64,000 nt of DNA. Origin: Anadara kagoshimensis (Eukaryota > Mollusca > Bivalvia > Arcoida > Arcidae). Positions 12,101-58,900 of this stretch are shown here, one piece after another. Below the pieces are notes generated by a model, which saw only the letters and a list, made by a program, of their open reading frames with translations, ran no database searches and had not been told where the DNA came from. The stretch's first letter is position 1; every line of letters begins with the position of its first letter. The DNA is taken from positions 7,842,482 to 7,906,481 of the forward strand of contig CM037866.1 of the NCBI GenBank assembly GCA_021292105.1, written 5' to 3'. A program made the position numbers and the translations under genes.

Positions 12101-15100
12101 ACCCAATAGAATGATGCTGACAAGCATTGATAGTGCTGTTTACAAATTTCTTGTATGATTTTAAGTAGAACAGAACTTTCAAGCGTTGGTTAAAAATAAA
12201 AGAAATAAATTTTAGTACAATGTACGTGTTTATCGTTTGAAAATTTTCGTCATAATTCCTTGTATTTTTCGAATTTTCATGGCTTCTTGGCTAATCTAAA
12301 ACAATTAGACTTACTGGTTTTCATTCCAAAGTGTTATTTTCTTGTCCTTCCCCGTTATATCACTCGTAGCTTCACACAATGTTGCTTTTATCTTGTATCT
12401 TTTTTCTATAAATATATTTAAAACCGACATCTGACATTACACAATACGCAGCGTAATTTTTCGAGATCAACAACACAAACATCATTACAGTCCCCGGTTT
12501 CACAATCTTTCTTTAGCTAAGATTTTCCTTAAGTTAAATTTAGCAAATTTTGATATTCTCCTTTTGGAACTATTGATGAATATTTTTGTCAAAACTAAAT
12601 GCAAATGTTTTAATCTAAAGGTCATCTTAAAAATAACACATTAAATTCCTGAAAATCTAGAAAATTTATTAAATTATAAAGATTTGAAATTTTGCAAGAT
12701 TTAAGTTAAGGAATTCTTAGCTAAGGAATCAGGAATCAAAGGGGGGTGTTGAGGATTATCCAGGTTTTTTAAAGAGGGTTTGAGAACTATCCAGGATTTT
12801 TTTAAAGTGAGAGTGAGAATTGTAACAATGCTAGGTGCGAGCGCCGAAGGCGCGAGCTCCAGAGACGAAGGTAAAGGGCAGAGCCCCGATGGGGGCAAAG
12901 AAAATCATTTTTAATTAGTCAATGTCTCTCTTTCTTTTTTAAAATTTTTCAAAGGGGGGGGGGGGTTTGCAACCCCCGTAACCCCCCCTTAAATCCGCCA
13001 CTGGGAATGATAGTAAAACCAGGGTGTGATCTTCTACTATTGCTACTACAGTGTATACATTTATAAAACCTCGTTTCATGTATATATTTACAACATTGAC
13101 ATGTCCGTTTTACCTTCTATTTTGGAGTATTCATACACGATGATTCACGCAATACATGGATGGTGTTGGGATTCGGAGTTAATACATAATTAGTGTATGT
13201 TTTCAATGATGTCTCCTTGACATAAATGTATAGTATTGTGCTGATATAGGTTTTAGCTGGTTTCACGCCTTCTTTTAAGAAACAACCAACAGGTGAAATA
13301 TTTATACTGGTTAGTAATAATTATTGCAAGATGTTACGTTTTTACTGTATTTCATAATTATGAAAATGCAAATTAAATGTAGCAAAATAACTATACTTAT
13401 GTGTTGGAATAGGAATCTTCTCTTTCAACTCTGAAAGTCAAGAGTTTCTTTTAAACAACTATTTATCTTCCATGTGTAATTGCACTAATATCAACATTTA
13501 AATATTGCGTTTGTTCTATTGCATCTTATACGTACCTGTTATTAATATCCCAAGACTGAGTTCTTCGCCAACAACTGCAGTTTGTACATCGGCGTTTTGA
13601 CCTGGTTGTGTTAAATGCATCCTTATTTGAGGTAACTTGTATTTCACGGCAGGAGTTGTATAGGACGAACTATGTATAAATGAATAAACAAATATACTCT
13701 AAAAACGAAATGAATTTTAAATATGGCATACTCCAACAAATACGAGTTGAGTTGCGTAATGGTGTTTAACGTCCTAGTCAAGAATATTTCACTTACATCG
13801 AGACGCCGCCAGCTATTGGCGAAGGTGCAGAAATTTTGCCTGTGTGTTGCGCTGATGGCATTATACAGCAGGGGTCTTTAACATGCCAAACCCACCGTGA
13901 CACGGGACCTCGTTTATTTTAAAGTTCCCATCCGAAAGAACCGTTACTTTCATTTCGTAATGCCGAGTGCTTGGCGAAAGGACAGTCACTACCCACTTTC
14001 AAGTCTTGCGTCAGACCCGGCCGGGGATCGAACCCACATACGGAGCGAGCACTCTACAAACTGAGCTACCGCAGTGGTATCCAACAAATACGATATTTAT
14101 ATGTTATCTTAGCGTTTTAGGGCATACATTAAAAAAACAACAATAAAAAACCAATCCATGTTGAAATCTAATAAGGGGAAGTATATTAAGGTTTATAAAA
14201 AGCCAATTTAGTTACTTAAACACGTGCACTTCCACGAGGGTTGTGCTATCGGGTGATCCGAAAAGGTAAGTCCCTCCTTTTTATCTAAATATAATCGCCA
14301 TGCTTGCAATCGAGAGTAGAAAATACACGTCCATGTAAAGTTTGGACACAGAGACATCGACAATGGGCTGTATAATGATTATAACGTAACCATGGTTATG
14401 GCAATATATATTTACCTGACGTCAAACAACATAAATATATACTATGGAGCATTACAATAATAAAAAATATTAGATTTCAACATTACTTGTCAAATAATCT
14501 GTGTAGCAAATGCCATCAATATATCACAGAAACCCCATTTTTAAATTAAAAAGAGCGTGCTTTAAGATTCATTTAATCAATATATCGAGCATGGAATCAA
14601 TTCCTTTGGTAAATCTATAATAAAAACTATTGTATGTGAAGCAATACGTATTCAATGTTGTAATAACCTTTACATCCGTCAAACTTTGTAGTCTATTTCC
14701 GTTTATAATTATAACACTGGAGAGAAACTTACGGCTAAACGGATGTTTGCTCTACTTATTTCTACTGTTCAGTGGCTGTTTGTGTATCCACTTGATATGA
14801 ATTAACAGAGAAATTCAATTATCGAAATGTTTGTTAAAGATCATTCGGAACCAAATGAAAGATCATTTCACTTAACAACTATTAGTTCAATAAATTAAAT
14901 CAGGGACCCTGTAAATGCAATGAAAAAACATTTACTTCAAGGTTAATGGTATCATTGCATAGGAAATGGTCGCCGTAAATGCCGATGAACAATCTAATTT
15001 GAATCGCTTAGAAGATCGTCCACCAATGACCCCTTGCTGTTGAGCGGTATCGTTGAGCTTATCAAAATCTAATAACACTGGCGTATCCTAAAACAACAAC

Positions 15101-16205: not shown

Positions 16206-18307
16206 TAATAATAATAAACAATACTTGCATGTTTACAACCTGTCACAGTTATCTGATCTGTTTTGTTAGTGCAACTAAAATGATTGCAATGTTCGGGTTT
16301 TACTTTTGGAGATGGTTGGATACCAGTTATCTTGAATATTCCATTTGGAGAAAATGTTTTTTTGTCAATTGTAATGGATCCATCTAAATTGCACACTGCA
16401 ATATAAAAATAGTAAATATTAAAAACATTTGTAAAATTGTATATTAAATGTAAAAAGCTAATTCCAAATGTTTAAATTGAACTGTACTAACTACTTGTAT
16501 AAACATCCACAAAGATATATAGGCTTCACACTTGGGCCTTTTCGACGTGTCGGACTCGCAGTCTTAACTGGAGATGTTTATTTTAGAAATCACTATCAAT
16601 TTATTGCAGTTCACCGGAAATAAACGAAACTTTGGAAGTTGCAATTTCATCAAAATTGCGAAGATACTGAATATGATAACGTAATTGCATTGCGTTTAGA
16701 AATGTTAAAAAATTTAAGTTAGAAAAGTTAGAAATGCACTTTTGATAAGTATTGCAAATATTTGATATGATTATTAATAATTAAGTTATGTGTTGCACAA
16801 CTTTTGAATTTTATTACTAAAACATTAAAAATAAAAAAAAACACATAGCATGGTTATAAGAGTATTTAAACCTGCTGGAGACAGTGGTCTTTATTTCTTA
16901 ATTCTAATCACTCATTTTATTTGCGGTTTGGTTCATCATCGTTTAAACTTTTCTATTCAAATTACAGATAAATCAGATTGTAAATGATATTTAGAATAAA
17001 ACGTGCCGCTCCTTTGATGTGAACCAAAACTATTGGTTGTTGACATCGATATTGCATGCCAAGGCCTGTCAAGACCCTCAAAATTTTGCATGGCCGTTAT
17101 CACAATATTGTTGATAAGTAACAATGTATCTATCCAAAATTACTCTGTATCTATTTCATGTCGCATATTTCTATGGTCCTTTACTACCAATTTTGATTAC
17201 ACACGTGGCGGGTGTAGCCAGCTAAACAGGAGATGGTCACCCTTCAGGAGCACCCAGTCTTATTTCCGTGGTGAAAGTATATGTGTTTACCTTAATTTGC
17301 CAGCTTCATTTTCGATGTGTTTGAGAAGGCTTAATCTATTAGATACATGGATCGTCAGCTACGTTATTCAGATTAGAAACACATTGGTTTACTAAAAATT
17401 CTATTAAATTTGAATTATAATATTTCAACATATTGAGGTCTTTTTGAACAGATAACTTATACATGCCATATGTGAAAGTTGTTGGAACTCCATCTGTATC
17501 TTGAGCGCCACTGCTCTTACCAACTTCAATTTCACACTGATTCTAAAAGTAAAGATAAATCAATGTTAACCGTAAGTGCATTTTTTTCGAGTTGTACTAT
17601 TTTTCGCTTATTTCGGGGATGATTTGTTTAATTTCCGCCAAAATTTGTACCACGCCTAAAATAATGTATACTACATCAATTTTACTTTACAATATTATTT
17701 ACGTAAGCCTATTCCAAGTCATTACAAAAATTTTTTATCTAAATTCAGGTTATCTTCTCATTGTTTATCCATTGAAACAGGTCGTTATAATAACAAAAAA
17801 CGAAATGAAAGATGTTGTATATTTTGTAACGGTGTTATTGAAGATGAATATCATTTTATTTTGGAGTGTAAAACATATACCTATATTAGAAAACAATTTA
17901 TTAAACCATACTACTGGGTCAAACCAAGCATGTACAAACTTATACAGTTGCTCAGCATCAACAATGTCAAACAATTATGCAATCTAGCGAAATTTTTATG
18001 TAATGCTTTAAATATTAGAAATAATGTTTAACTTTATATCATTATATTTATACTTTATATTTATTATCTCTCCTGGTACTGCTGTTTATTTATGTATAGG
18101 GCTTACTGAACATTGTTTATATTATGTAATTATATATATTGTAAATCCAATAAGTTGTAATTAACTTACGGAATAAAGAAATTGAATGCATCAAGCTTAT
18201 AGTAAAATTCACCCAATGTATATACTTACCGTTGTGGTTTGACTGTTACTTCTACTTCCTTGTAATGCTAGACACACCACTGCAAAAGTTATTGCGAACG
18301 AATTCAT
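9102..18307 (-). CDS. ZP gene C: divergent zona pellucida-domain protein on the opposite strand (9 coding exons, 376 aa)
   Basis: Coding exons in transcript order: 18307-18230, 17542-17347, 16395-16229, 15087-14936, 13669-13536, 12405-12315, 11390-11225, 10689-10596, 9154-9102. Phases are 0,1,0,2,1,2,0,1, matching genes A and B from the second junction on. Residues 1-26 are a signal peptide (FAITFAVVCLALQG). Exon 2 (27-91) is a two-cysteine segment I do not recognise. ZP-N runs through exons 3-4 (PLCNLDG, GCKH, KRFKLDC). Exon 5 has the ZP-C opening strand (RMHLTQPG, ADVQTAVVGEELSLGILIT). Exon 7 has AFRFVGTDDVYFTCNVRLC, the most diagnostic ZP stretch. Exon 8 has STRKRRS (residues 332-338), the consensus cleavage site, then ESVTAKIRVYDV. 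The tail is VITIVIMVMTLCC. Weaker points: the exon 2 donor (GTATCT), a GC donor on exon 3, and the very short last exon. Unlike A and B it has no mucin insert. Confidence 0.8.
9590..9740. mobile_element. Tc1/mariner-type MITE
   Basis: The termini TACAGTAAAACCT (9590) and AGGTTTTACTGTA (ending 9740) are perfect inverted repeats around a 125-bp non-coding core. It lies in the last intron of ZP gene C. Confidence 0.8.
10310..10565 (-). mobile_element. Retroelement 3' tail, minus strand
   Basis: TTCCACTAGGGAGTGTGTCC, CACCTCCTGTTTAGCTAGCT and ACTCGCCACGTGTGTAATC. It lies about 30 bp downstream of exon 8 of ZP gene C, in sense with the gene. Confidence 0.8.
10735..10960 (+). repeat. Unclassified dispersed repeat (ATTCCTCATCAGTAGTG family)
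   Basis: AGCACTTGACGGACATTTTA, CTTGATCAGTAGTG and TTTAGCTAAGGAAATAC recur in varied form near 12035, 15690 (minus), 31490, 41970, 47820 (minus) and 51540 (minus). No coding capacity. Confidence 0.5.
12490..12720. mobile_element. MITE family 2, right end missing
   Basis: It begins CCCCGGTTTCACAATC and AGCTAAGATTTTCCTTAAGT and shares its core with the complete copy at 21862-22104, but lacks the closing GTGAAACCGGGG. Confidence 0.7.
12721..13080. other. G-rich TE-like remnant in an intron of ZP gene C
   Basis: It includes GGCAGAGCCCCGATGGGGGC and a G12-13 run followed by AACCCCC and a CCGCCACTGG end, a pattern echoed near 31715-31790. No coding signal. Confidence 0.4.
13083..13260. mobile_element. 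MITE family 1, half copy
   Basis: CAACATTGACATGTCCGTTT and GATGGTGTTGGGATTCGGAG match the left half of the family; the right terminal repeat is missing. Confidence 0.55.
13746..14079 (-). mobile_element. tRNA-derived SINE family 1, complete with target-site duplication
   Basis: Full antisense copy running from the 3' end (GTTTAACGTCCTAGTCAAG) to the tRNA-like head (GAGCTACCGCAGTGGT). TCCAACAAATACGA flanks it at 13732-13745 and 14080-14093, a 14-bp target-site duplication. It lies in intron 4 of ZP gene C, about 65 bp from exon 5. Confidence 0.92.
14140..14345 (-). mobile_element. Retroelement 3' tail, minus strand
   Basis: CACGTGCACTTCCACGAGGG and AAGTCCCTCC followed by a degenerate CGCCATGC end. 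Same family as the other tails. Confidence 0.7.
15170..15250 (-). mobile_element. Short retroelement terminal fragment
   Basis: ACAAACAACCAATCCATATT, CAAATCACAATCTCAAAGCA: only the outermost tail survives. Confidence 0.45.
15312..15458. mobile_element. Long hairpin (foldback) element
   Basis: TTATAAGAAATGAAGTTAAA and about 40 further bases up to AATTGGACATT are mirrored by AATGTCCAATT...TTATAA. Arms are about 60 bp around a loop containing GCGTAGCGAATTATG. A right-half relative lies at 52925-53035. It sits in intron 3 of ZP gene C. Confidence 0.8.
15977..16001. repeat. (AT)n microsatellite
   Basis: About twelve AT dinucleotides. Confidence 0.9.
16172..16218. repeat. (AAT)n microsatellite next to an exon of ZP gene C
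   Basis: About fifteen AAT units with one AAA interruption. It starts about 10 bp inside the intron that follows exon 3 of gene C. Confidence 0.9.
17040..17330 (+). mobile_element. Retroelement 3' tail, sense
   Basis: AAGGCCTGTCAAGACCCTCA (decayed end of the RT frame), ACACACGTGGCGGGTGTAGC and GGAGCACCCAGTC. It ends within about 20-50 bp of exon 2 of ZP gene C on the other strand. Confidence 0.8.
17590..18190 (+). mobile_element. LINE ORF C-terminus and 3' UTR
   Basis: A plus-strand frame over about 17815-18030 reads CNGVIEDEYHFILECK, YIRKQFIKPYYW and KLIQLLSINNVKQLCN, with a C...H...C pattern typical of LINE ORF C-termini. The 3' UTR closes with ACGGAATAAAGAAATTGAAT. It lies inside intron 1 of ZP gene C, opposite to the gene. 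Confidence 0.7.
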
Positions 18308-25539: not shown

Positions 25540-25594
<55 letters not shown>

Positions 25595-25677: not shown

Positions 25678-25712
<35 letters not shown>

Positions 25713-25850
25713 CTGACCAGATTGGTCAATAGCCAGATCGGCAAAATAGAAATAAATAAATAAATAAATAAACAGATTGGTCAATAGCCAGATTGGCAAA
25801 ATGTAAATAAATAAATAAATAAATAAATAACTGACCACATCGGTCAAAAG
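24390..25850. repeat. 1389-bp tandem duplication, copy 2 (about 70 bp longer)
   Basis: Nearly base-for-base the same as copy 1, with small differences (for example at 23130 and 24520) and one extra AAAT/AGATTGG unit at about 25730-25800. It exits at CTGACCACATCGGTCAAAAG. Confidence 0.92.
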
Positions 25851-26039
25851 CCTGATGAGCAAACAAATTAATGACATGGACCAGTTTAACCAAGGGGAGG
25901 GGAAACACATGTTTTAGAAGTTTAAAATGATTGCAAAGCCTGTTGTATTCTATAGATAAATATATTGTTATCCAGTTGGCTTAAATAAACACCATCTTCA
26001 CAGAGTATACCTCATTTTATCAGTTATTTCTGGGTACCA

Positions 26040-36700: not shown

Positions 36701-39700
36701 AGATTCACTGTCTTTGGGTGCTTTTGTGTCACTTGCCAGTTTACGAAGTTAGAATTTACGACTGTGATTTAAAAATGGACCGGCCTGTTTTTAATATATA
36801 AAAAACACGTAAACAGCAAGAAACAAGGAACAGCATAAGTAAAGAAAGTACAAGAGGCAAAACAAGTAAAAACAATTATACCTATGTTCTAAGTCACAAT
36901 TCCGAAGCAAAGTAAAAATTTGAAAGTGGCTAATTAAATTAAACATGTGAACTTCCATAAGGGAAGTGAGACCGAGTGATCCGGGAGGATTAAGTTCCTC
37001 CTGTTTAGCTAATTACAACCATCACGCGTGCAATATAAAAAGTTAAAAGTAATTTTTAATTTAAGGTTGTGAAGAAGACAAAAGTATTATAATTAGAGGC
37101 ATAAGTGATGGCGGTGTTGTAACCATTCTTGGCCGACCTGAAAACTGCTCGGTTGAGAACATTACATCATCAATGCAGCAAGTAGAAATCAAAGCAGAAT
37201 GTTTGACAGTATGTATGATAAATAGTTGATAGCATTTCTTGTGCCTTCTTTTCTTGTGTGCGTAATTAAAAATCTTATATTTAATCCGCGTGCTTAAAGT
37301 TAAGCAGAGCTGATGTCAGATCAATAGTTGACGTAAGATTGTTTCCAAAATCCAATATGGTGATGTAACTATAAGAAGAAAAACAAGATAAGAATATTAA
37401 AAGCTATTATTGATCGATCTATTGACAAATTTTGCTAGATATTATCAGCAAAAGGCTCCTTATCGTTCGTCCGTCGTGCATTGTGTAAAAATGTTTCACA
37501 TTTTAATCAACTTCTCCGGCACTACTGGTCCAAACTGGGTGATATTTAGCATCAAGAGTTAGAGATGTTAGATGTTAGAGATTTCATGTAAAACATACTT
37601 AGGGCACCTAGTACATTGTAGCTATAGGGACCAAATGGGGAAATGGCTAGATACTTAAGGGGAAAATTGCTAAAATTAGTGTATTTATCAATGTATTTGG
37701 AAAACTATAAACTTTTTGTATAGGCAAATATATAGATACCTTGTTAAATCTGGAGTAAAAAATGTCACCAAATCATTTAACTCAACATACAGATATATAG
37801 ATGACGTTCTGTCTCTTAACAATCCTACATTTGGACACTATGTGATAGTATTAGTATGTTTGTTTTTGATATAACAATATTGTAGGCATTTGTTTACGAT
37901 CTTTTTGATATATTAATGGAGGTCAAATAAATGATGAAATGCTTAATTATCTTGGAAGCTATAAACATTTTGTGAAGCCATGTATATTATAATATTGTAG
38001 GCACTGGCCTAACACTCATTTTGATATATGGATTCAGAGGTCAAGGTCTCATAATCAAACCAATTCTGAAATGGTTAGTTAACTATAAACTTTTTGAATA
38101 GGCATGTATATTAGATTAAAGTAGGTATTGACATAATGATCATTTTGATATATCAATGAAGGTCATGGGTTAAAAGGGCAATGTCATAGATGCAAACAAA
38201 TGCTAGAGTGACATAGTTTTTACTTTTGTTTCAACTATTTAGCTGTTTATAAATATACTGCAGCTAGACCTTACATTATGACAAGTTTTAATTAATCTGC
38301 ATAAGTCTTGACATATTTGCCCTAACTGCTAAAAATAAGGACATTCTCCTTAATTTTTGTAATTAACCATTAAACCACTGCATGAGATAGTTACATAACC
38401 TCAGGTAAGCGTAAAAACCCTTTGGCCTCTTGTTAATATAAACAATATATCATTCATTAACCTGTTTTAATATGCGTAAAAGGTTAACCCAAATAACAAA
38501 GTTTTCCGGCAAATTTTTATTGACTCAATTTTGCCGGATAAGTAAGGTCTTTGGGAAATAAAAAAAAGAAATCCTATATTCAAAAGCAATTACAGAGACA
38601 ACTTGGCGGGAAGCTCCTTTATTTTGTGTTTTAGTGACAACTACATTTAAATGCCTGATAGGTTATGTTATTGTCTGTTCACCGTCAAATATCATATTCA
38701 CAAATTCTCTGTACTTTATGAAATGATGATTATTTCTTTTTAACATTGCATTTAAATACTATTTTTAGGATTTCGATTTATTTTCACCTTGATTCAAAAG
38801 AATTAGAATCATGTCTGCATTCAGTAAGGCAGCTAATCGCGTTAAGATGGTGTAATAAAAAAGAAATATTTCTTCTGGTCCAATTTTACTTTCATTGCCT
38901 ATTCGTTTCTTGATCCATATGAAGCAGAATTAATGCAGAAAAATGTTAAACATGGAGAAAAGAAAAAAAATGCTTTTCTATACAGCGATAATCCTATTTC
39001 TCTAGTTGATATGATGCATCAATTTCACAGTTAATACGTTACGGTTGAGTTTGTTCCACTTACAGACACTTTATTTAACAAAGGAATCTGCTAACAAATA
39101 AATTATTAAGGCGTTAACGCAAGCCATGACTTATCAAGCCAATTAAACGTTATATCACAATATTTTGATAAGTATGATGTCTCGTTATTTAAAATATATT
39201 AAATATATTTCTTGTTCTATAGTTTCGGGTTTCTTTCATTCTCAATTTAAATTACATACGTGGAGGCCCTATTTTCATTGTAGAATGTCGCTGTTCACTT
39301 ATTGCAAGTTTTCTAAAGCTTAACTTTTAGGAGTGTGATTTGAATATGTAACGATATGATTGATAGTTCGTTATGGAAAATGTACCTTCTGCCTGTTACA
39401 TTATACTTTAATAAGATTCATTATATGACAAACGTATTTAATTTTTAGTTTTTATTGTAAGCTTTCCTTTTCTTTGGCACAAAACTTGTTTTCCTCCTTG
39501 TAGTGTATTTATTTTATGTTTATACGCAATGGCAGAGGTTATTACTGCTACAAGAGCTTAAAAGAAGATAACAAGGTGCTCGCAAACAGAGTACTGACTC
39601 GGGAATTTTGTATTCTTACTTATTTTGTAGTTGACTGCTTGCTTCAAAGTTCATGTCAGTTTTTGGTTGTTTTTCATTGTGTATTGTGGGCATTAATTAC

Positions 39701-42700
39701 TGTATTCGTTTTTGACACTTTAAGTACACTTACATTACGACATCAGTATGGGTTAGTATATGGGACCAAGCCTACGATGGAACAAGAGGAAGAAGGAGAA
39801 GATCCCAATCAACAAGAAAAGAAACATTAACAACATCACTAACAGGATCACAATTAGGAACATTATCAACACCACTAACAGGATCACAATCAGGAACATT
39901 ATCAACACCACTAACAGGATCACAATTAGGAACATTATCAACACCACTAACAGGATCACAATCAGGAACATTATCAACATCACTAACAGGATCACAATCA
40001 GGAACATTATCAACACCACTAACAGGATCACAATCAGGAACATTATCAACACCACTAACAGGATCACAATCAGGAACATTATCACCACCACTAACAGGAT
40101 CACAATCAGGAACATTATCACCACCACTAACAGGATCACAATCAGGAACATTATCAACACCACTAACAGGATCACAATCAGAAACATTATCACCACCACT
40201 AACAGGATCAACATCAGGAGTATTATCTACACGAGTACCACCAGCAACACCGTCAATAAAAGGCGGTCATGGTATTCATTATTTTAACTTAACATGTAAT
40301 GAAATATCTCCTGATGGGGTTGACAGAATGGCTGAAAACCAAATGCATTTAAAGTAAGTATGTCATAGCACACTTAGCAACAACTTATTGAAAAATAATA
40401 GTTTGTTAAAAGCTTAAGGTTTCAATAGCTAGCAAAACACAATATTCTAATTTTGTCACCCTTCAAAGAAATTTCTCGTATAGCGATTGGCTAACTTGCC
40501 GGTGTACATGGAACGATGTTCGAAAATCTGCCGGGGTACATGAGAGCATGCGACATCTAGTCTAGTTACGTACATCTAGTCTAGTTACGGTAAACAAACA
40601 TGGCGACAACGTACGCAAGTCACACAAAATACGAAAAGGAAGTTAAAAAGATCAAACTGGTAACGCCTTGAAGGCTGACAAAAACGTTATACAGGTCTTT
40701 GGCAGGTTACACGGTCCTATGTACCCCGTCAAAGATGAATGTACCCTGAGCCTGCGACTCAGGGTACATAAATCTTTGACGGGGTACATGGGACCGTGTA
40801 ACCTGGCAAAGCCCTGTATAACTTATAATATATCCTAATTTAACAGCTTGTTATTATTAAAACGCCCCTGCCATGGACATAAACGACTTTCTATTAATGG
40901 TAAGATAATATTTACAATTGGAATTGATCTTCTTTAGATGAACCTATTTGTTTTAACTGGCATTCAATTGCTCTTGAATACAGTGTGGGGTCATGACCTC
41001 TGATTACGTAACGTTCAATTATTCGATTACGTCACAGAGTGACATCTATTACGTCACGCATTGTTTGATTGGTCAGCATCCAAGTCTACTCGCGACGTAA
41101 CTTTCCTTATTTGGAGCAAGGCTGTTCCATCAATCCCGTATGTTTGTCGGAATCGTGAATGAAATAAATTATTGTAGCGATAATTTTACATTTCGGACAT
41201 GCTATCAACGTTTTTTATGATTGTAAATATAAGAAATAACATTCTATTTGAGTGTATTCATTCGGTATTATGAATGAGAGTCAGGAATAGCATATTTAAC
41301 ATGAATATGCTATTCCTGACTCTCATTCATAATGCCGAATGAATACACTCAAATAGAATGTTATTTCTTAATTGATGCATTTTTAGTCAATATTTTTGTT
41401 GTTATAATTCATGATAATGCATAATAGATTTAAACGCTCAGTTTGATATTTGATTACCATGTATGTGGCACACTATAACACTCTAAACAAAACCAAAGTT
41501 TCGTGTATTCATCAATTATTTGTAAAATAAATGTGAGTAAATTTGAATGCAGACACTCTTACAGAAACGAAACTTTATTAGTTACGTATCGGAAAGACAA
41601 TCGTGAACATCACTTTGAATATTTGCTAGAAAACATTATTGATTTTAAGCGTTAGATGAATAAAATGATAAAAGATAATAATTTACTGAAACATTCAAAA
41701 CATATATTTTAGGGATTTAGAATTAAAAAATGATGGTACATTTGAAGTAGACAAAGTGAAAATGACCTTCCGGAAGAAAAGTTATCTTTCCAGTGAGCGC
41801 TTGACTCGCATTTATACTGGTGATGAATTATTTATGTTTTTGGAATATACAGGGACATCGAGTAAGTATTTTCGTATTTGGTATACTCACAAAATTGAAA
41901 CCCATTTATAGACAAGAGTGTAATTAAGTCAATTGAATTGTGCTTACATGTTTTAATAGAGCTATTTTACATCACCAGACGGCCATTTCGAAATAAAATT
42001 CCTCATCAGTAATGCTTGGAGAAAATTTATAAAATCAAATTTTTAAGTGATAGAAAAATATCCAAAGTACCAAAAAATGTATTGAATCAAATTTAGCTAG
42101 AGAGATACCTTGCATAAAGAAGTAACCCGTACTTTTTGAGTTTTTCTTATAATAGTGCATTAACAATGATAACTGATATGTTTCCCTTTTGTATTGTCAA
42201 TTCAAAGTTACTATAGAGAACATGCACTTTAAATTATCATTTATAACATATGAAAATTGTAAGGTTTTCTACTTTCTACTTTAGTTTGATTCATTTTAAC
42301 CAATTTGTCTGATCCTAATATGGAGAGAGGTTAGCTTTGTGCGAGCTTACTCAATGTAATGTTTCATTTTTGCAGGTAATAATTACGTAGTTATGCCGAA
42401 AACTTGCACCGCAATACCTGGAAATAATGTTGACCATTCAAGATTCAGTAGCTTACTTTCAACGGAAAAAATGGAACTTTGGAATTATACCAAGTAAGTC
42501 AAAATTATATTGAATTATCTATAGAACTGTCAATTTGAAATGGACATTTGAATAATCACATGAGAGAAAATCCAATAAGTCTTTGAATCCCAGTTTTGCC
42601 GTAGAGTTGTTTAAAGACTGTAAGGATGACACCTTTGAGAAATATATCTAGAAGATTTATTCCATGGAAAATAACAAAGAAATGAATATTGACAAATGTA

Positions 42701-44486
42701 AAAATGTATAAATGTAAATAAAATTATTTTATTAGATAAATTTATTTAATGATCTTGTCTGTTGACCGATCGATTGCCATTTTGCAATGGAAATATAAAT
42801 TATCCCTTTATATATGTTTTAGAGATATACTTTTGATTCATTTATTTTATTATCTACATTGAGTTTCCATTAGCATTATTGTGTTCGGTCAGTATTATCA
42901 TCTGATCTTATCTTAACAGTTGTGTTACAGAAAAGGCACAAGACCTAGCACTTATGGAGAATTTTGAGTTTTATGGTCGTGTTGCCCGTGTGAAGATGTA
43001 TGGTTTCCATTTTGAAGGAGTGTCAGATATTTCTATTGTGTGTAATGTTACTGTTTGTCGCTCACAAAATGATACAGGCTGTAAACCACATCATGGTAAC
43101 GTAAGTATATTACTAAAATGAAAGCAAACAATTGCAAACTTCTAAAAATTAATTTTATTATTTATTTATCGGTTTTAATTACAAATCAGTCTTTTATCGT
43201 TTAAACAGCTTCTAGTACGTAAGCAATGCTATTAATGGATTTTTATTTTATGCTAAACGTTGGATGCACTATTATTTAAAATTGAGATTCTAATCAATGC
43301 CATGTTTTAAATAAATATTTAATATATTAATAGAAGAGTAGTGTGGTTGCTAGATGTGTGACATAATATTTTATTCATAAACCTGGTTATTGGCCGGTAT
43401 ATAAGTTCATTGATATTTCATCATCACTTAATCAATCAAAAATATAGTATTTACTAACCGATGATTTTCTTTTAATACGATGGCATCGTTCAGAAAAGGC
43501 TTTTGATTTACAATTCATTAACATAATTTATTTTCTTTATGTATTTTAGTTCTAGTGCATACACCATTTTATTGGATGGTAAATCTTGGTGTCTCAATTA
43601 CGTTAAGATTCATGTGAGATGTATAAGTTTTAATTGATATATAAGTTCATAGGCCAGTGTGTGTCACTGTTAAAAAAACATCACTTTTATCTAGTGCATT
43701 AAACAACTTTTTCAGGGATGCCCGCTAACAACGACATCACCAAAATCAAGGCGAAAAAGGAGAACAAGAAATATTGGAAATAATCTTGATATGAAATTAA
43801 AACAGCGATTCTTCATTGATCATGAGAGTCTTATGCAACACAAAAACACAAGAGGCAAAATAGTTCGTGAGAAAAGGTCAGCACAAAAGGGATCTTCATC
43901 AGACACAATGGTCTACAACACAATCCGTGTATTTGATACTGACTTCGATGTGTCCAGTAAGTAACGTTGTGGCAGAAAAAAGAATGTCATTAGAAGGTTT
44001 TAAACATTTATTTTAAAAGCATAATTATTTTTAACATGTATGAGTAATATTTGGGGAATGGCCAAAAATGAAAGTAAAAATTAAAACTCGAATACAGTTG
44101 ACAATATATTTTGTTTCTTGAATTGTGACCTGGTTTTTCCCATGGCCATTTGAAGAATGAACGTGGTGTCCAATTTTAGTGGCTCTAAAAGAAATCATTT
44201 TATGATTATAAATTCGTTGTTTTAGGATTTTATTTAAGGTATTGTCATATATGCAATTTCGTTTATATGGAAATTTATGGGTAAATATATGCACTAAAAA
44301 CGAAAAAGAGAATCCCGTGAAAATTTATTATTTCAAAAGTAATGCAAATGACATATAATTGGAAATTAAATATAATGGAATTGTTTTAAATCAATATTTT
44401 TTTTTTCTTTTGCAGGTACAAGCTTCTTGAATCCTTTACCAATAATGGCGTATTTTGCGTGTTTTCTCTTGAGACATTTGTTTTAA
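33758..44486 (+). CDS. ZP gene A: secreted zona pellucida-domain protein with a 12-aa-repeat mucin-like insert (10 exons, 547 aa)
   Basis: Coding exons: 33758-33772, 34704-34745, 36444-36498, 37066-37208, 39725-40353, 41713-41861, 42376-42493, 42920-43100, 43716-43956, 44416-44486. All introns are GT-AG and the phases (0,0,1,0,2,1,2,0,1) join into one open frame. Residues 1-26 form a signal peptide (core KILLLLSMVFIVGSA). Residues 38-85 hold ZP-N cysteines 1-3 (SCEED, ENCSV, AECLT), and the fourth lies in HYFNLTC near the end of exon 5. Between them are RGRRRR (about 106-111) and eleven 12-aa Ser/Thr/Pro repeats (about 124-255). The ZP-C half (about 308-444) includes IYTGDELFMFLEY, MPKTC and FEGVSDISIVCNVTVC. 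SRRKRR (455-460) fits the consensus furin-type site, VREKR follows at 494-498, and a short hydrophobic tail ends the protein. ZP proteins generally polymerise outside the cell after cleavage. The start is supported by conservation of the first exon with gene B. AATAAA-type signals near 44955 suggest the 3' end. Tissue and ligand are unknown. Confidence 0.86.
34870..35200 (+). mobile_element. Retroelement 3' tail in intron 2 of ZP gene A
   Basis: AGGCCCTCAAAAAG, TTGATAAGTATGATGTTTCT, CCCATAGTTCAATGTTCCTT and the closing TAGTATGTTTATTTTTGATT. Confidence 0.7.
35188..35293. mobile_element. Foldback element with 25-bp termini
   Basis: TAAGGAATGATTGTAAATTT near the left end is mirrored by AAATTTTTTACAATCAATCC + TTA on the right. 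It abuts the retroelement tail. Confidence 0.6.
36860..37030 (-). mobile_element. Antisense retroelement tail just before exon 4 of ZP gene A
   Basis: CATGTGAACTTCCATAAGGG, AAGTTCCTCCTGTTTAGC and ATCACGCGTG, ending about 35 bp before the exon at 37066. The branch-point region of the intron is therefore partly TE-derived. Confidence 0.75.
37770..37885 (+). mobile_element. Retroelement fragment with intact YIDD box, internally deleted
   Basis: TYRYIDDVLSLNNPTFGHYV is readable at about 37781-37844 and joins directly to the outer tail (TAGTATGTTTGTTTTTGATA). Everything between is missing. Confidence 0.75.
39030..39300 (+). mobile_element. Decayed retroelement 3' part
   Basis: GCTAACAAATAAATTATTAA, GCCATGACTTATCAAGCC and TCTCAATTTAAATTACATAC follow the canonical order in diverged form. 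Confidence 0.6.
39500..39620 (+). mobile_element. Retroelement ORF remnant upstream of ZP gene A exon 5
   Basis: GCAATGGCAGAGGTTATTAC and CGCAAACAGAGTACTGACTC match the LANKLLTQ end of the RT frame. Confidence 0.5.
39839..40234 (+). repeat. Coding minisatellite in ZP gene A exon 5: 11 x 36 bp
   Basis: Eleven 36-bp units with core CTAACAGGATCACAATCAGG, the last degenerate. The splice-consistent frame reads LTGSQSGTLSTP-type 12-mers. The unit is a multiple of three and lacks stops, so two other plus frames and a minus frame also stay open; those are shadows. The Ser/Thr/Pro content suggests dense O-glycosylation. The array is absent from gene B, so it expanded after the duplication or was lost from B. 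Confidence 0.9.
40680..40825. mobile_element. Long perfect-type hairpin in intron 5 of ZP gene A
   Basis: TTATACAGG...GGTTACACGGTCC, ATGTACCCCGTCAAAGAT and GTACCCTGAG on the left arm mirror CTCAGGGTAC, ATCTTTGACGGGGTACAT and GGACCGTGTAACC on the right. Arms are about 65 bp with a loop of only a few bases. Confidence 0.8.
41231..41370. mobile_element. Second long hairpin in intron 5 of ZP gene A
   Basis: AAGAAATAACATTCTATTTG through GAATAGCATATT is mirrored by AATATGCTATTC through CAAATAGAATGTTATTTCTT. Arms are about 64 bp with a short loop. Confidence 0.82.
41960..42130 (+). repeat. Unclassified dispersed repeat copy
   Basis: CACCAGACGGCCATTTCG, AAATTCCTCATCAGTAATGC and TTTAGCTAGAGAGATACCTT, in intron 6 of ZP gene A. 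Confidence 0.45.
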
Positions 44487-48958: not shown

Positions 48959-51900
48959 ATGGATATGAAGATGGTATGTTTTATGAACTTGAATGTCATT
49001 GAACTTATAACGTTTTTTATATATAACTAATTAAGATATATTGATTTTTTTCAAACAAGTTTTAGTGAATTCGTAAATACATATTTTACTCATAAGATGT
49101 TTGATTTTAATAGATACAAGTATTACATTATTATAATATGGACTCACACTTCAAATTACATTAATTGTATGATCTTACATTTGAAATTTTATAAATTTGT
49201 ATGCGACTAGAAAAAAAGGAGACAATCGTAATTAATATTTAACTACAAAACGTTTTTTAAGTTCGAACATACGTAAGCCTGATTAAAGTACAGAATTGTA
49301 GAACATTTAACACGAGGCTAGTAAGAAAGTGCCGAATCTGTATCTGTTTTCGGCCCCTCGTTCCCTGCGTTAGTTTTTTTGGTTGACAACAGTACAAAGG
49401 TAAGGTATCGAAATTGTTCTTCACTTCTAACGAATATGTCGGAGACGGATTCTTCGCCACTATGCACGTTGCACGAAAAATAGGTAATACTTTTTTATGA
49501 TTATAAATACTTGCTAGACCTGTTTAATTTTGCAAACCACGTATATTTATATACATTCATAAGTTCCCATGACGATATCACGAAGAGCCGCTGTGCGGCG
49601 AGTCGTGATGTGTCAAGGGGACAAGATGAGACTCTGATACAAATCCTGTACATAATTAAGATATAAATGATATTTTTATTTTACAATGTTCACAAATTTA
49701 GGAAATATCTAGTGTTATTAATTAAAGTTAAACATAGTAAGTACTATTTCTTTTTTCCGATGAATCTGGGATGTGTAACGTCACAGTATAAAATACGGAT
49801 CGCAGTTGGCGGGCGCCAGGTCATTGGACGTCATCTAAGACATCGGGCGTGTGATTAACTAGCTTTTAGAATCTTTGAAAAATGGAAAAGACGATTATTT
49901 TCTATTAAAACTTACGATTTTGATAGCGTTTGAAGTTCTTTGTGCAGTTAAAATTCACACGAATGGAACTTTTACTGTGAGAGATGAATCGTCATTTGAG
50001 AACATTGAATCTGATACATTGATACATTTGAGAACATTGAATCTGATACATTGATACATTTGAGAACATTGAATCTGATACATTTAAGAACATTGAATCT
50101 GATACAAATTGAAACTTACCGCTTTTGCCAAGAATAACACTTTACCGTTTTATTTTTGGATAAAGATGAACATTGTTACGATTTATTGTTGATATCAACT
50201 GCTTTCTTTTGTCTTGACATGACAGAATCTAGGGGAAACCCCTGATCTTTTTTTACGACGACGTCATTACCACGATTCTGAAGTAGTCCGCAAACAAACA
50301 AAAGCGACTTTGTGTCAGGTATATGCCTCATACAGAATCTTGTATCAGGCACCCTTGTATCTGTTCAAGAATGAATGAATTTAAACAAAATACATATTAA
50401 TTATAAGATAAAAATGATTTCTGTCATAAGCTATAATATCGCAATAAGCATGGTATCGTTTCAGAATAAATTTATGTGTTTTATATTTTTTAATCAAATT
50501 CTATAAATCTTATTCTTTCCTTATCTTTTCTAAAAGACATGGTTATAGATATGGTAATTTTCTATGTAGATAACTTTCATTTATCAAATTCAAAGTATAT
50601 TCTCGTTGCTATTTTTAAACCCAAATTGTATTACAATGCTAGGAGAATAATAATTATAATTGGTATAATAATGTTTCAAAAAAACTTATTCTTACTTTCA
50701 TTTTTTTCAGGCAATAAATAAGATACTGTTTTTATTTTTAACGGTAAGTGAAAACTTTCATTACATTGTAAAAGTTGTTCAAATTTTTCTTTAAAAAAAG
50801 TGTGGATCGAATATTACAATTACAAGTTTAAAGTCATATCTTCGTTTAACGGGATGGCTTTTGATTGTCCTTCTGGATCGAAAAAACAACATATGTCACT
50901 AAATGGTTTATCTATAGTTTGGATGTAATAGCTAAAGATAATATTGTAATTATACTTTGATAAAGGCGAAAACTGTCTCCAATTTTTAGACGGAGTAAGT
51001 GGTAAAACTTTATTCGGCTGCTAACACGAAACGTTTTTGACAATTCATCATCAAACGTGGTACTTATCAACTATACTATATTTTTATAGTTCTTCCTTTC
51101 TTACAACAGTGTTCATTGTCAATGCTAAGAATGTAAATCCGCTTACATTACACCATTCGATTCATTGTGTTGAAGCAGTGGTCGATTATACTACTGGCTG
51201 TTTCTGGCTTATTGAATCATTTTATATTCCTATTTATTGTTAATTTTAGGTTGTTATGGTTACAACAGCGTATGATGAATATGTTCACCCACATTACACA
51301 TACAGTAAGTAATATTTACATTACTCTGTAACATTACTATTTAAATCTTTGCATTTATTGATTAGTAAAATTTTGCAGACATTCAGTTGTTTTTTAACAC
51401 ACAGTTGATCGATTCATGTCAAATCACAAATTTTGCAAAAATATGTTCAAAACATTTCTATAGAAAATATACCACTCAATTTTACGTTTATTTTATGATG
51501 TGATAAAAACTTCACACTTTGTAAAATTGTAAGTACCATTGTCTAAAATTGCAGCTAGTTTGATATCTGAAAATCCTCAAAACACAAGGTATACTCTCTC
51601 ATACAACGTATTTCCTTAGCTGAATTTGGTTACATATATTTTTTGGTGTTTTGGATATGTTTTCAACCCCTTAACAATTTTGGTTTCTCAATCAGCACCA
51701 CTAATAAAGAATAAAAACAATATACTGATAAATATAAAAAATACTGCAGCTGAACCTATTTGACAATCCAAAACAAACCTACTTAAATGCTAAAAGTTTT
51801 TAAACATGTTATTTTAGGCTGTGAAGAGGACCGAAGTATAATCTTGAGAGGCATAAGTGACGGTAGTTATGTAACCATCCTTAATCTAAATTCTTCAACG

Positions 51901-54900
51901 TGTACGGAAAAACAGATAAAATCAGAATCACAACAAGTACATATAAAGGCCGGATGTTTAACAAAGGTATGCATACTATATCTTTGTTTCGATATAACAC
52001 TTTATTTTTGCAGGTTATACACCCATTTGAAATGCATGTACAATGTATATATATTACAGAAAATTGAATTAAAGACCCAGTAGAATCTGTAACATTCAAC
52101 TGACACTTAATTAATTAAAAAACAAGCGAACTTCATGTCATAATATATGGCATCATGCATTTGGAATCATGCAGATTAATGGATAATTTATTTACAAGAT
52201 ATTTTTTAAGAAATGGGACATCAAATAATTCTGAGTTACATACTTAAAGTATGTTAAACTGCCTTCTACTTCCAATCTATATCTGAACAATACTAATTGA
52301 GCCTTTAATCAACAATGTTAATATGGCATAAAATTGTGTGATATTGATAGCAAGACTAGTCATGTAAAATGAAAAGGAAACATGTGCACCTTGGGTCGTA
52401 TATAGTTAAACAAAATGTCGCACTGTGAAAATTTAGTCAAAGAGAAATTTCTCAGGAAAAAACATAACATTGGTTGGTTGGTTGGTTGGTTGAATGTTGC
52501 TTAACGTCGCATCAGCAATTTTTCAGCTATTCGCGACGAGAACTATTTAATTAATCTCTATGGATTAATCTATGAACAATTTGTGTATGCATGTGAAGTG
52601 CTAGTGTGTTGTATGGTCTGCCTTTACCGTGCTAGCTCACAGAGTCAGTACGCCGCAGACAAGCGTACCACTCCCCCAGTCCATTATACTGATACCAGGT
52701 GAATCAGTAAAGGCCAATGGTAAGTAAAATTTACTTTCCCACATGTGGTCCGAGCGGGACTCGAACTCACAGCGGTGAGAGACCCTGGATTTGAAGACTG
52801 ATGTCAACCTATGGAAATTTAATATCACTTTTCGTTTTAACTGGCACAATTCGTGAATATCAGACCAATTTCTCGTATATGTGCGTTTTTGTTACATTTG
52901 CCGTTATAAGGTGTTCACCGTTATACAGCGAATAATTCGCAAAGCGAATTATTTACGTGTGCAGTTTGTCTAATTCTTTCATACTTTCATAACAAAATAT
53001 AAAAGTAATTTAAGTCTTATAATTCATTTTTTAGAAATGCTTCAATACAAAACCAACACGGTAATCACAATATAGCCGTAGGATATTTTGTACCCATATC
53101 ATATCTGTTTCAATTTTTGGCACTAATTTTTTCATACATGGTCATGTAAAATAGTTTTTTTGCCATGTGAGATATCACATGACCCGTGACTTTTAGTCAT
53201 CCTGTGGGTGACATGACGTCATATTAATACACATCAAGGGATTTGACCCAAATTGTCTTTCAACGGGAATTGCAATACAATTGCTTCTGTATGTTTCATC
53301 GAAGACGGGTACAATCACATTGTAAATATTTACATGTATTGTAGGCCTAGCAGTTAATGAAAAATACCTTTAAGTATGGTTTATATGTGTCGCCATTTAT
53401 ACAAGCACCTTGTTATTTGAATTTCATAGAACAAATTTCCCGTCAAACGTTACAACCTATGAGCTAAGGTTTCCAATATTCGAATATGGTTGTCACAATA
53501 GTCAAAAATAAATCCACGCTTGATGAACATGAGAAAAAATTACATAAGTGCTGGGTGAAAATCATCAATGTTAGATTTTATAACGTTTACCTTTCATCAA
53601 AAGCATTTTTTCCAATATTGATTAGCTAGCATAGTACCTTTATAAATAATCGTAAGTATGTAGATTACAATATCTAAATGACAACAGTGATTATAAAGCT
53701 GTTTTCATGCTTAAAAATGGCGATGATAAAATTACAGAGACATGTTGATTATAGTTGCAAAATTGACAAATACTTTCAGAATATTTCAAATAATTCATCA
53801 TCAGTTGAAATAAGTATATGGGATTACGTATATGATGGAACAACAACAACGATAACAGCAACAACACATAAAAAAGGAACTAGAAGAAAAAGAGACAGCC
53901 AAAGTCAAACAAATGAAACAACTTTAGCACCAACACCATCAATGCCTGCCACACAGAGAACTCCTCCGCCACCACCGAATATCAAAGGCGGACATGGTTT
54001 ACATTATTTTAACCTTACTTGCAAAGACATATCTCTAAATGGGGTTGACAGAATAGCGGAAAACCAAATGCATTTACAGTAAGTACGATATTTTATAAGC
54101 AGTAGCAATACAAAAACCTATCATGTCCTATCATGTCGTTATTCAGTAGTTTAAATTAGCATATTAATTCATAAAGCAAGGCATAAAATCTTAAACCCAA
54201 CAGTTAGTTGGAAAACACTTCCCTGTCATGTGTATTAATTCATTTGCTTTTAATTTTATAGTTTGGATTTTAAAATGTGTTTGTAGCAATCAATAATTTT
54301 AAAAAGTATGACATAGCTTGGTATGCATGTAGTACTAGGATAAGGCCCTTAGTTCTCAAATAAACCAAATTAATATCAGTCAACTGTCGATGAACAGGGG
54401 AAATATTCTAACCTCACTCTATTAGCACATATCAACATATTTGTATGTTAGACATTTTGGAGTATTAACTAATGATCATGTAATAAAACTTGACAGTATA
54501 TTTACCATGGTGACCCGGTTTCATTTGCCAGCTGTGGTTACAGACCTCCGTTGTGACTTGACACTCAAAATTAACCAATTTTGGCCTTAACACATTTAGT
54601 GTTATGCACCCATATTTCAATAATATTGCTGCAACAACATGAATGTTGATACTTTTTCAATTCAGGAGAATTAAAACAATATTTCTATACTGCATTTATG
54701 ACCCAAGTGCAAATTTTTACAATTTTGGAACACATTTGTTTTCCATGGCAGCCACACAAAAATTGCAAAATATTACCCCTAAATAGGCCATATTCATAGA
54801 ATCAGATGGTAAACAAACCTCGAATTACATACAATGGCACATAATTTTCCTGAATCCTTAAATATTCCACTTTTTGTTGTGAAAGAAAACCAGAGTCTTG

Positions 54901-55859
54901 TTGAATTAATTTTTTTCAGACATTTGGAAAATGTGCCAACCATGCTAAAAGCAAACGGAAATGTTTACACCCAAAATGTGGTCTTTCCATAGTAAGTGTA
55001 TGGTGCGGCGGAAGTCCTTACGCCGGAAATATAGTGCTATAGTCAATTAATTCAGGTTTAAATTTTTGCAAACCCAACAACCTCTCACCTTGGCAATATT
55101 GCAAAGTACTACCTATTAACAACTTTAAATGAGCATGGTCTAAGGAAAGACATCTGAGTTTGTTTTAAGCACTACTTTTGACCGTCCCACATCTGGCCTT
55201 ATCACGATTGAGGTCTACTACCTGTAAGTTGTCATTTTTGAAATCATATCACAAGTGATTTAGGTGAAAATTCAAAATTTTTGAATGCGTTTCAAATTTT
55301 AATTGTTGGATTGTATTATAAATAACCTATTTCTTTTTATTACAAACTATACATATTTTTCTACTACTAAATCTCAGTGTTCATAACATTTTGTTTGTTG
55401 TCTTTGTTTTATGAATAATTCAAAAGTAAAACAAATTATTTTTGTGTCTTATGTGGAGGAGATCTAAATCAATTGATTTTGAAGCCAGTAGTATCATTGT
55501 TGGAATGTTGATGTTATAGAATAAATGATAAATTTTCTATTATAAACAATCATATCATCTTAATTGCAACTATTGCGTTTATTGGGCAGGGGTGTAATAA
55601 TAAAACTTGTAATAATACAAAATATTTATTTTAGGGATTCGGAGGTGAAAAAAGACAATACCTTTGAAGTAGCCAAAGTGAAAATGACCTTCAGGAAAAA
55701 AAGCGATATTACAAGTGAACAATTAACTCGTATCTACACCGGTGATGAATTTTACATGTTTCTAGAATATGTAGGGACCTCGGGTAATTATTTCTCTTAT
55801 TCGATATTCTTACCGAAAATGAGATTCGTTTGTAAAAAGGGAAGTTAATACAATGTATA

Positions 55860-55920
<61 letters not shown>

Positions 55921-58900
55921 TGTTAAATGTTATTTCTTATTTATTTGTAGCTAACCATTACGTAATTATGCCAAAAACCTGCACTGCAATACCAGGGAAC
56001 AATGTGGGTCTTTTAAGAATGGAAGGTCTATCTTCAAACGAGACATTGGAGCTATGGAAGTATAATACGTAAGCCGATAATTTTATTATATTTTATGATT
56101 AAGGGAAACTAAAGACGGATATATTTGAGAAGAATAGTAGATTGACATTATTTATTGAACGTTCAATTAAATTTTCTTCAAAATTGTGAAATTAAATAAG
56201 AGAGAGTTGAGTAATGGAGTTTAAAGTTCCAGACAAGAATATTTCACTTGTGACGAGATGTCGCCCGCTATAGATAAAATTGCAGAAATTTTTCCTGTGT
56301 TGTGTTGATGGCATTATACAGCATGGTTCCTTATCGTGCCAAGCCTACCGTAACATGGTCACTCTTTTATTTTTATTTCCCATCCAAAAAACCGTGGCTT
56401 TCATTTTGTTATGCCGAATGCTTGGCGAAAAAACAGTAACTACCCACTTTCAAATTATGGGTCAGACCAGGTAGGGGAGACAAAGAGACGAAGAGAAAAA
56501 ACAAAAATTGTTAGTATATTTAAAGAAGTATCGATATGGAAATTTTTTAAGCATTATATATATATTTATGTTTTAATTTCCCCAAATTTTTAACATATCT
56601 ATTGCATATTTATTTATACTTTTTCTTTAATAACATACCATTAACATTATTGGGATTTGTTCAATATCATCATCTCATCTTATCTTTACAGATGTGTAAC
56701 ACACAGTGCACAAATCTTAGCACTAATGGAGAATTTTGAGTTTAATGGCAATTATGCGCGTGTTAAGATGTATGGTTTCCATTTTGAAGGAGTGTCAGAT
56801 ATTTCTATTGTGTGCAATGTTACTGTATGTCGCTCTGAAACCGATACAGGCTGTAAACAACTTGTAAGTATAGAAGTATAATCAGAGCAAAGAATTGATT
56901 AGTTTATATATCGTGTTCAACAACAAATCATTTCTCTATTTCACGTTCAAACAGCTTCTGGTATGTAAGTTATGTTATGAACCATTCGGAGCACACGGTG
57001 TCACTTTCCTAGTGGAAGTCCACGTGTTCAACGTAATTTTTATGATTCAACAGTTTACTTTCCGTCTGAATTTTTTTTATTATGTTATGAATGTTTAAAA
57101 AACAGTGTGCTGACATCAGTGAGACTTTAAGATATATATATAATTTATTTATATATATTATTTCACGTCCTAAAGTTCAATGCTCCTTTAACACGTGGCG
57201 GGTGTAGCTAGGCAAACACAAGATGTTAACCTTTCCGGAGCACCAAGTCTCACTTCCCTAGTGGAAATCCACGTGTTCAACATAATTTTGAAGTTTCGAC
57301 GATTTTACTTTCCGTCTGAATTTTTTTAAATTGTAAATGAAATAGTGTGTTAAATTTTTGATATACTATACGATTAATGCAATTTTAGTTAAAAATCGAG
57401 ATTTTGATCAATGTTATTGTTTAATCAAATTTAAATTAATGTTAAATATGTTAAAAGAAGAGTAGTTTGGTTGATAAATGTGTGACATAGTTTGGTTCTT
57501 TTTAATACATAAGCCTGATAATCGATTGGTGAATTATTATTGAAATATTATTTAATAAAGCAATCATATAGATGATTTTCACTAAATCTGATAAAACAAC
57601 AAGGGTTTTGATTTGTTATTAACATGTTATCTCATGGGTCAGCGTATTCAAAAAATCAATCAAAATAGCAATTCGTCAAAAATGATGAGTTCATCATAAA
57701 AAAGACATAAAGATCCCAAAGTAGAACTTTTATTTGTTTGCATTTTATATCCTTTAAACCCTTTTTTCAGAGTTGCCCTGCAGCAACAGGAAGGCGTAAA
57801 AGGAGGACAGGAAATATCAACAAAACACTTTATTTACATTTAAAACAACTATTCCTCACTAATCATGAGAATCTTATGCAACACAAAAACGCAAGAGATA
57901 AAATCGTTCGCGAGAAAAGGTCGACACAAAAGGGATCTACAAAAGATACAATGGTCTACAACACAATCCGTGTGTTTGATACTGACTTCGATGTGTCAGG
58001 TTAGTTCCGTTATAGTAAATATACATATGTAATAAAAAAGTGAGGGGGTAGTTCAAATTGAAACTATTTAAGTCATATGAACCATAGTGGCGATTTTGAC
58101 ACGATTGTGACCAACACAATTCTAACGGGGAAAATGCTTTATGCCCTAGAAAGAAAAAACTACAAAACACAGAAATAATATTTGAAATAAACGAGCTCAA
58201 GCTATTTTCAAAATCAGAATTTGAATTTTTGAAAACGTTTTTGATATTATCCCCCGTTAAATTCAATATAAACGATATAGACATTGTTCATAACCACAGA
58301 TGACATAAAAAGAAAGTTTACCTGGGGTTAATATCACAACAATTTATACACCGTCATTAATTTTGTTTAAGATTTGGCAAGATACTTTGGTGATTTATTT
58401 TAATATATTTTCAGGTTTTGATATTTTTATTATTAAAACTCCACATTCTAGGGAACAGGACCAATAAGTTGTCAGAATATGGCCTCATTAGGGTTATGTA
58501 TACCGTCAAAGGATAGTCAAAATTAGGTAGAAATCGCCATTGCAAATTTAAAAATATAACTTACAACTCAAATCCATTCTGGGTTGGGAATTGTGACCCA
58601 AAATAGCAAACGGACATCTACAAAATGGCGTTAAACATTAAATAAAAAATCGATATCGATGATATCTAATAGGTAAAACAACAGAGTTCTATCAAGTTTA
58701 AGTAATTTATCTGACGGGTAAAGTCTTATCCGGAAAGTCCGAAACAAAGAATGTGGCTTATTTGTCCAATTCTAGGCGTAGTCTTGCTTTTAATTGATCT
58801 ATTATGTAACAATTCCATATGTGGTAATATAGAACGATAATAGTAAAATTTGAAAAAAAAAAGAAAAGGAATTTTAGATGTAATTAGAGAGAGGGATTTA

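Follow-up and report, generated by a model that had tools for sequence, protein, structure and literature searches.

Two neighbouring ZP-module genes of Anadara kagoshimensis, here called A and B, raise the question of whether the fold of a ZP-N domain can hold a mucin-like, cleavable insert between its third and fourth cysteines, and what the resulting protein would do. The window, meaning the whole stretch of 64,000 nucleotides that was analysed, corresponds to C10:7842482-7906481 in an assembly of 1.115 Gb and 36 contigs; coordinates without a contig name refer to the window. Homologues were searched in the window plus 200 kb downstream (264,000 bases, 1,000 of them N) and in a further 22,004 bases around a fourth place.

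Gene models

Starting at the first cysteine, gene A (37066-44486, + strand) and gene B (51818-59466, + strand) can each be read as seven exons that have AG acceptors and GT donors, the last exon ending in a stop codon. Both models start at Cys1, the 5' exons including the signal-peptide exon lying outside them, and exon numbers were assigned by likeness to gene C. The joined frames of A and B contain a single, terminal stop each, compared with 35 and 38 stops in the alternative frames of A and 29 and 31 in those of B. Counted from Cys1, the products are 509 and 394 aa long.

Exon 3 of gene A (37066..37208, +) encodes the first half of the presumed ZP-N with Cys1 to Cys3 (CEED...ENC...AECLT) and is supported by its AG/GT sites, the open joined frame and a homologous exon in B, E, F and G. 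Exon 5 (39725..40353, +; splice sites, frame and homologues) carries a presumed beta-F strand (VWVSIWD), the insert and a presumed beta-G strand with Cys4 (HYFNLTC). The linker and ZP-C follow in three exons (41713-41861, 42376-42493 and 42920-43100, +; splice sites and a PF00100 match), with an FHF motif of the FXF type at 43005-43013 (+). The exon 3' of ZP-C (43716..43956, +) holds a furin-type RRKRR at 43749-43763, and the last exon (44416..44486, +) encodes a hydrophobic C-terminus and the stop. Gene B repeats this layout on the + strand: exon 3 with Cys1 to Cys3 (51818..51966; splice sites and frame), exon 5 (53780..54078), linker and ZP-C exons with FHF in ZP-C (55635-55783, 55951-56068 and 56692-56863), an exon with RRKRR at 57792-57806 (57771-57999) and the last exon (59396-59466). 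A hydrophobic strand and a hydrophobic C-terminus were recognised by eye in both genes, as candidates for the external hydrophobic patch and the membrane anchor of a ZP module.

Gene C lies on the - strand, and in its model some splice sites were selected so as to maintain the frame. Its exon 3 was placed at 16225..16395, with a donor that is one choice among several options, its exon-5-like exon at 14936..15077, with an acceptor chosen to keep the frame, and further exons include one at 13536-13669. The exon-5-like exon encodes a short loop (KLNDTAQQQGVIGGRSS) and Cys4, and has no polybasic motif. Between the ZP-C exons of C, an open stretch at 13118-13271 (-), with an AG before it and a stop at its end, is a possible alternative exon that would give a truncated product.

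The ZP-C half was the part detected by profiles. Against PF00100 (cut-off 24.6 bits), gene A scored above the threshold (30.4 bits, E=4.6e-7), while B (21.9 bits, E=2e-4), C (22.2), E (23.2) and F (18.4) remained below it. A PDB search returned a weak match to uromodulin (28yj, E=0.013) that covered the ZP-C part only. The FXF-type motif of ZP-C was present in all seven ZP genes found on the contig, as FHF in A, B, E and F and as FRF in C, D and G, and the furin-type site 3' of ZP-C reads RRKRR in A and B and STRKRRS in C.

Several repetitive features accompany these genes in the window. A 26-nt minisatellite with 47 copies (81% match) at 671-1899 has long open frames running through the array on both strands. 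A reverse-transcriptase frame of the non-LTR type at 4665-6650 (RVT_1 E=7.3e-23, zf-RVT E=2.3e-10) overlaps a first frame at 4015-4719, and a tandem duplication of about 1.39 kb at 23001-25869, with ATAA-type microsatellites, showed 98% and 100% identity in the two 300-nt blocks compared.

The insert exon

The preliminary description had placed a polybasic motif and a Ser/Thr/Pro linker between the third and fourth cysteines of A and B, and both elements are present in exon 5 of either gene. The exon borders it gave for gene A were exact by splice sites and frame: the acceptor ends in ctttaag before TAC, the donor gtaagt follows AAA, and the 629 nt between them are open in one frame, with 17 and 7 stops in the remaining two + frames. 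The exon encodes, in this order, the strand-like VWVSIWD, QAYDG, the insert and IKGGHGIHYFNLTC, the last (40256..40297, +) being the end of the loop and the presumed beta-G strand with Cys4. The insert itself, between DG and IKGG, spans 39782..40255 (+) and comprises 158 aa (55% Ser/Thr/Pro), somewhat less than the roughly 170 first given; in gene B it spans 53840..53980 (+) and comprises 47 aa (53% Ser/Thr/Pro), close to the earlier value of about 45.

A furin-type motif (R-x-[KR]-R) sits near the start of the insert in both genes. In A it belongs to the polybasic RGRRRR (39785..39802, +), so that RRRR ends at 39802 and is followed by Ser; in B it is the RRKR at 53882..53893 within GTRRKRD (53876-53896, +), followed by Asp. 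When the A insert was shuffled, such a motif appeared in 233 of 20000 cases, and for the B insert in 558 of 20000, so that its presence in both genes is more than chance would give. Lys and Arg account for 8 of 158 residues in A and 7 of 47 in B, and additional basic residues stand near the motif (STRK in A, HKK in B).

The number of eleven 12-aa repeats in gene A held. TRF reported a repeat at 39823-40232 with a period of 36 nt, 11.4 copies and a 95% match, and together with the reading frame this gives a minisatellite of eleven in-frame units at 39824..40219 (+) with the consensus TLSTPLTGSQSG. Relative to the consensus, 11 changes occur across the eleven units; every one of them is nonsynonymous, and some recur in more than one unit. 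When the degenerate twelfth unit is included, 24 nonsynonymous and 2 synonymous changes are counted, against a random expectation of 31% synonymous changes. Thus, no synonymous excess exists among the units, and they give no sign of purifying selection. With TRF applied to the window, Ser/Thr/Pro tandem repeats were found in gene A only.

Other origins of the insert were considered as well. A retained intron is rejected in view of the AG- and GT-flanked exon and the homologous exons in B, E, F and G, and a non-coding minisatellite in view of the frame that stays open across all eleven units. The exon lengths of 629 nt in A and 299 nt in B are both 2 mod 3, so that ZP-C would be read out of frame if exon 5 were skipped, and skipping is rejected on this ground. 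The exon of gene B had no blastn match in a phage collection. The intron following the insert exon of A contains two hairpins (40686-40822 and 41230-41370), with arms of 65 and 67 nt that are 92% and 99% complementary and 7 nt between them; they resemble short elements of the MITE type.

Identity of the half before ZP-C

We infer that the half before ZP-C is a ZP-N domain with the corresponding disulfide pairs, and by the order and spacing of its cysteines the insert appears to fall where ZP-N has its fg loop. The spacings in E and G are 24-26, 18 and 44-47 residues, next to 32, 20 and 41 in mouse ZP3 and 31, 23 and 36 in uromodulin. An aromatic residue follows Cys3 after 15-17 residues in A, B, E, F and G, and ZP3 has a Tyr at 13. 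Before the Cys4 strand, C and E share a hydrophobic-GG-Arg motif that resembles the III-R of uromodulin. In a hand alignment that runs one residue out of step with the Arg of ZP3 and uromodulin, C and E carry Arg after GG, while G carries Lys, F carries Gln, and both A and B carry His.

The profile methods did not add to this. In A and B, Pfam found only ZP-C, leaving the upstream half without a match, and it found no ZP-N in C, D (with four intron residues), E, F (with a shortened exon-3 end and a wrong last exon-5 residue) or a loop-shortened B, nor in five ZP-N halves; a PDB profile search for ZP-N also gave no match. With hhalign, the score of A, B, E, F and G against known ZP-N was equalled by 36 and 66 of 100 sets of shuffled columns, and that of a six-gene set (in which D had four intron residues and F a shortened exon-3 end) against five known ZP-N (uromodulin cut before C335) by 5 and 18 of 100. 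For A, B, E and F against uromodulin and GP2 (uromodulin cut before C335), shuffles equalled the score in 11 and 39 of 100 cases for ZP-N, 22 and 21 for ZP-C and 25 and 31 for the whole module. As it likewise misses the ZP-C half, which Pfam does detect, the shuffle test is a weak one. Hence, the earlier identification as ZP-N has indirect support from cysteine order and approximate spacing, while neither a profile match nor an hhalign score above shuffles backs it.

The six-gene alignment to uromodulin reached E=6.6e-4 and a probability of 11% in global mode and E=0.0011 and 20% in local mode; D was misaligned, and the uromodulin sequence was truncated at D339. In the global alignment Cys2 to Cys4 met uromodulin 366, 389 and 425, and Cys1 met C347, not C335. 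The insertion point came to lie just before uromodulin I412, in an alignment where D is misaligned and C335 is lacking. An AlphaFold2 model of exon 5 alone (B with A) was uninformative at a pLDDT of 39.

The ZP gene cluster and its series of loop lengths

Seven ZP genes were found on the contig, with C, A and B inside the window and D, E, F and G beyond it. Gene D lies just past the window at C10 about 7908452-7911325, its ZP-C exons located by tblastn and HMM and its ZP-N exons picked by eye; E follows at C10:8060316-8069804, F at C10:8082305-8102697 and G at C10 about 8138672-8152756. The distance from Cys3 to Cys4 rises from 27 residues in D over 33 in C (a value that hangs on a chosen splice site), 44 in G, 47 in E and 62 in F to 84 in B (Cys3 at 46, Cys4 at 130) and 193 in A (45 and 238). 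This agrees with the shorter interval first noted for C, and extends it to D, E, F and G. The exon-5 set, with A and B entered with shortened inserts, aligns as IWD..DG-insert-xIxGG..HxFxLxC, and the short loops of C, E and G vary in length. Gene F has a loop of 26 residues with 85% Ser/Thr/Pro and no Lys or Arg.

A furin-type motif between Cys3 and Cys4 occurs in two of the seven ZP genes, A and B; none was found in the other five, where the scan took in the complete ZP module for C, exons 3-6 for E, F and G, and the ZP-N half for D. A search of the whole genome with a blended exon-5 peptide (E<=10) gave at least seven matches, with all seven in the cluster: one each in A, B, E, F and G, plus a pair of truncated copies next to E. 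This is a lower bound, because the search scores only the best candidates and missed C and D. The two truncated copies are E-type exons 5 at C10:8063182 and C10:8064974, about 1.8 kb apart and upstream of the intact E exon; both end in GLHLYKHVYSE, without the Cys4 strand. In exon 5 of gene F (C10:8084125-8084340), the loop has its own 12-nt repeat coding for TTSS, recognised by eye, so that the Ser/Thr/Pro loops of F and A may have grown independently.

Descent and selection

Genes A and B are tandem duplicates within the ZP-module cluster. In a tree built with G lacking exon 7 and F carrying a shortened exon-3 end and a wrong last exon-5 residue, they were sisters at 99.9 SH-aLRT and 98 bootstrap, and the remaining three nodes were weak, at 81-83 and 65-70, respectively. 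Outside the repeats, both genes are under purifying selection. Between A and B, omega was 0.28 in exon 3 (dS 1.16), 0.18 in the Cys4 part of exon 5 (dS 0.58), 0.19 in exons 6-8 (dS 0.86; 74% identical) and 0.54 in the tail (dS 0.33); for the strand before the insert, dS was saturated and dN was 0.34. A pseudogene reading is ruled out by the open frames and the low omega, and since both copies look constrained, both are probably in use. The furin-type motif has been retained in both duplicates despite the dS of 0.58-1.16 in the first three of these segments.

Comparison with known ZP proteins

The fg loop of uromodulin and ZP3 pairs with the FXF motif in the ZP-C of another subunit, and in uromodulin either the fg-loop mutation R415A or deletion of FXF abolishes polymerisation, according to the parts of PMC7737619 drawn on here. 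Counted by cysteines, the loop of both proteins matches that of A and B in position, and they likewise have an FXF in ZP-C and a protease site following it. However, their loop is short (36 and 41 residues from Cys3 to Cys4), and their sequences carry neither a basic cluster nor a Ser/Thr/Pro insert.

The preliminary description had held that no described ZP protein shows this arrangement, which was overstated, as cleavage inside a ZP-N is known from mammalian ZP2: its ZP-N2 is cut and the pieces are kept together by a predicted C1-C4 disulfide (passages of PMC7155028). Both the cut and the disulfide are presumed for A and B. In contrast, ovastacin cuts ZP2 in an extra N-terminal ZP-N, not in that of the module, after fertilisation and between LA and DE, and those passages mention no mucin-like insert. 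The ZP module of Drosophila Piopio is cut as well, by Notopleural or matriptase, but in the linker between ZP-N and ZP-C and not within ZP-N, as far as the excerpts of PMC6331135 describe it. C. elegans LET-653 has a predicted heavily O-glycosylated linker (which linker is ambiguous), an unusually long linker between the ZP halves and a C-terminal furin-type site (excerpts of PMC7665627); in LET-653, this feature lies outside a ZP-N loop. Among molluscs, abalone VERL is an egg-coat ZP protein enlarged by repeats (PMC13361971 and PMC11673550, in part), but whole ZP-N copies are repeated in VERL, whereas in gene A the loop of a single presumed ZP-N has grown. No printed case of a furin-type site together with a mucin-like stretch in a ZP-N fg loop was found in the open-licence literature, supplements aside, and the portions of PMC13361971, PMC11673550, PMC3144882 and PMC7456536 that were available contain no case like the insert of A and B.

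Proposed mechanism and alternatives

The reading that we tentatively propose, at slightly less than an even chance for the whole of it, is that A and B are surface or egg-coat matrix proteins in which the ZP-N fg loop has been lengthened to a mucin-like spacer and is nicked by a proprotein convertase into two disulfide-linked chains. The product would most likely be a surface or egg-coat matrix protein, and the fg loop of its ZP-N half would have been extended to form a spacer, rich in Ser/Thr/Pro and probably O-glycosylated, with a furin-type site near its start. The convertase that would cut the C-terminal tail at RRKRR would most likely also nick the exposed loop at RRRR or RRKR in the secretory pathway, leaving two chains joined by Cys1-Cys4. 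Chain one would then comprise strands A to F, and chain two a free mucin-like tail followed by strand G, the linker and ZP-C. This tail would project from the filament or interfere with the contact between fg loop and FXF. Cleavage, glycosylation, tissue and effect on polymerisation are all what we infer for A and B from sequence. Against cleavage, furin could be blocked by O-glycans close to the motif, and the Asp that follows RRKR in B is not ideal for the enzyme. A more far-reaching version, which we regard as quite unlikely, places a furin nick in the fg loop of the module's own polymerising ZP-N, so that each filament subunit would be a two-chain domain, with a free mucin brush where the subunits make their polymerisation contact. 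In this version the 36-nt minisatellite would set the length of the brush, possibly differing between individuals, and assembly or gamete recognition could become length-dependent.

Several alternatives bear on single steps of this reading. Possible, although on balance doubtful, is that A and B are polymerisation-defective or capping ZP proteins, in which the longer loop and the His in place of Arg after GG break the contact between fg loop and FXF; they would end or space filaments, with cleavage optional, and this explanation overlaps with the main one. The loss of polymerisation in uromodulin R415A (PMC7737619, in the parts cited) argues for it, and so does the His of A and B at a position where the other genes aligned have Arg (C, E), Lys (G) or Gln (F). 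However, the match to R415 is the out-of-step hand alignment, and neither FHF nor the furin-type site 3' of ZP-C has been lost in A and B. The loop might also be long and uncut, a tolerated, variable Ser/Thr/Pro insert grown by repeat slippage around an idle basic cluster while the domain works as usual. We consider this unlikely, even though the basic-free loop of F, the different lengths in C, E and G, and the 95% alike units of A without synonymous excess are consistent with it, because both duplicates have an R-x-[KR]-R in corresponding positions, and none of the five further ZP genes scanned has one.

The upstream half could instead be another four-cysteine segment before ZP-C, in which case the insert would lie in no polymerisation loop. 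The Pfam and PDB profiles without a match and the hhalign scores no better than shuffles with the corrected sequences point in this direction, as do the standalone ZP-C domains of nematodes (reported in the parts of PMC7456536 at hand). We nevertheless judge it decidedly unlikely, given four cysteines in ZP-N order and near spacing, the aromatic residue after Cys3 in five genes, and the retention in seven of seven genes of the FXF-type motif, with which the fg loop of a ZP-N pairs. Finally, the basic cluster could serve binding, for example of sulfated glycans or sperm proteins, and not cleavage. The nearby STRK and HKK would fit such a role, but the strict furin spacing in both genes and the few Lys and Arg residues elsewhere in the inserts (8/158 and 7/47 in total) make it very unlikely.

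Significance

Filament growth in uromodulin and ZP3 depends on the contact made by the ZP-N fg loop. Across the cluster the corresponding loop varies naturally from 9 residues in G to 158 in A, and a furin-type site is confined to the two longest loops; this series offers a ready test of how much the contact tolerates and of whether cleavage can control assembly. If these are egg-coat genes, the repeat number in gene A would be a candidate for variation in sperm access.
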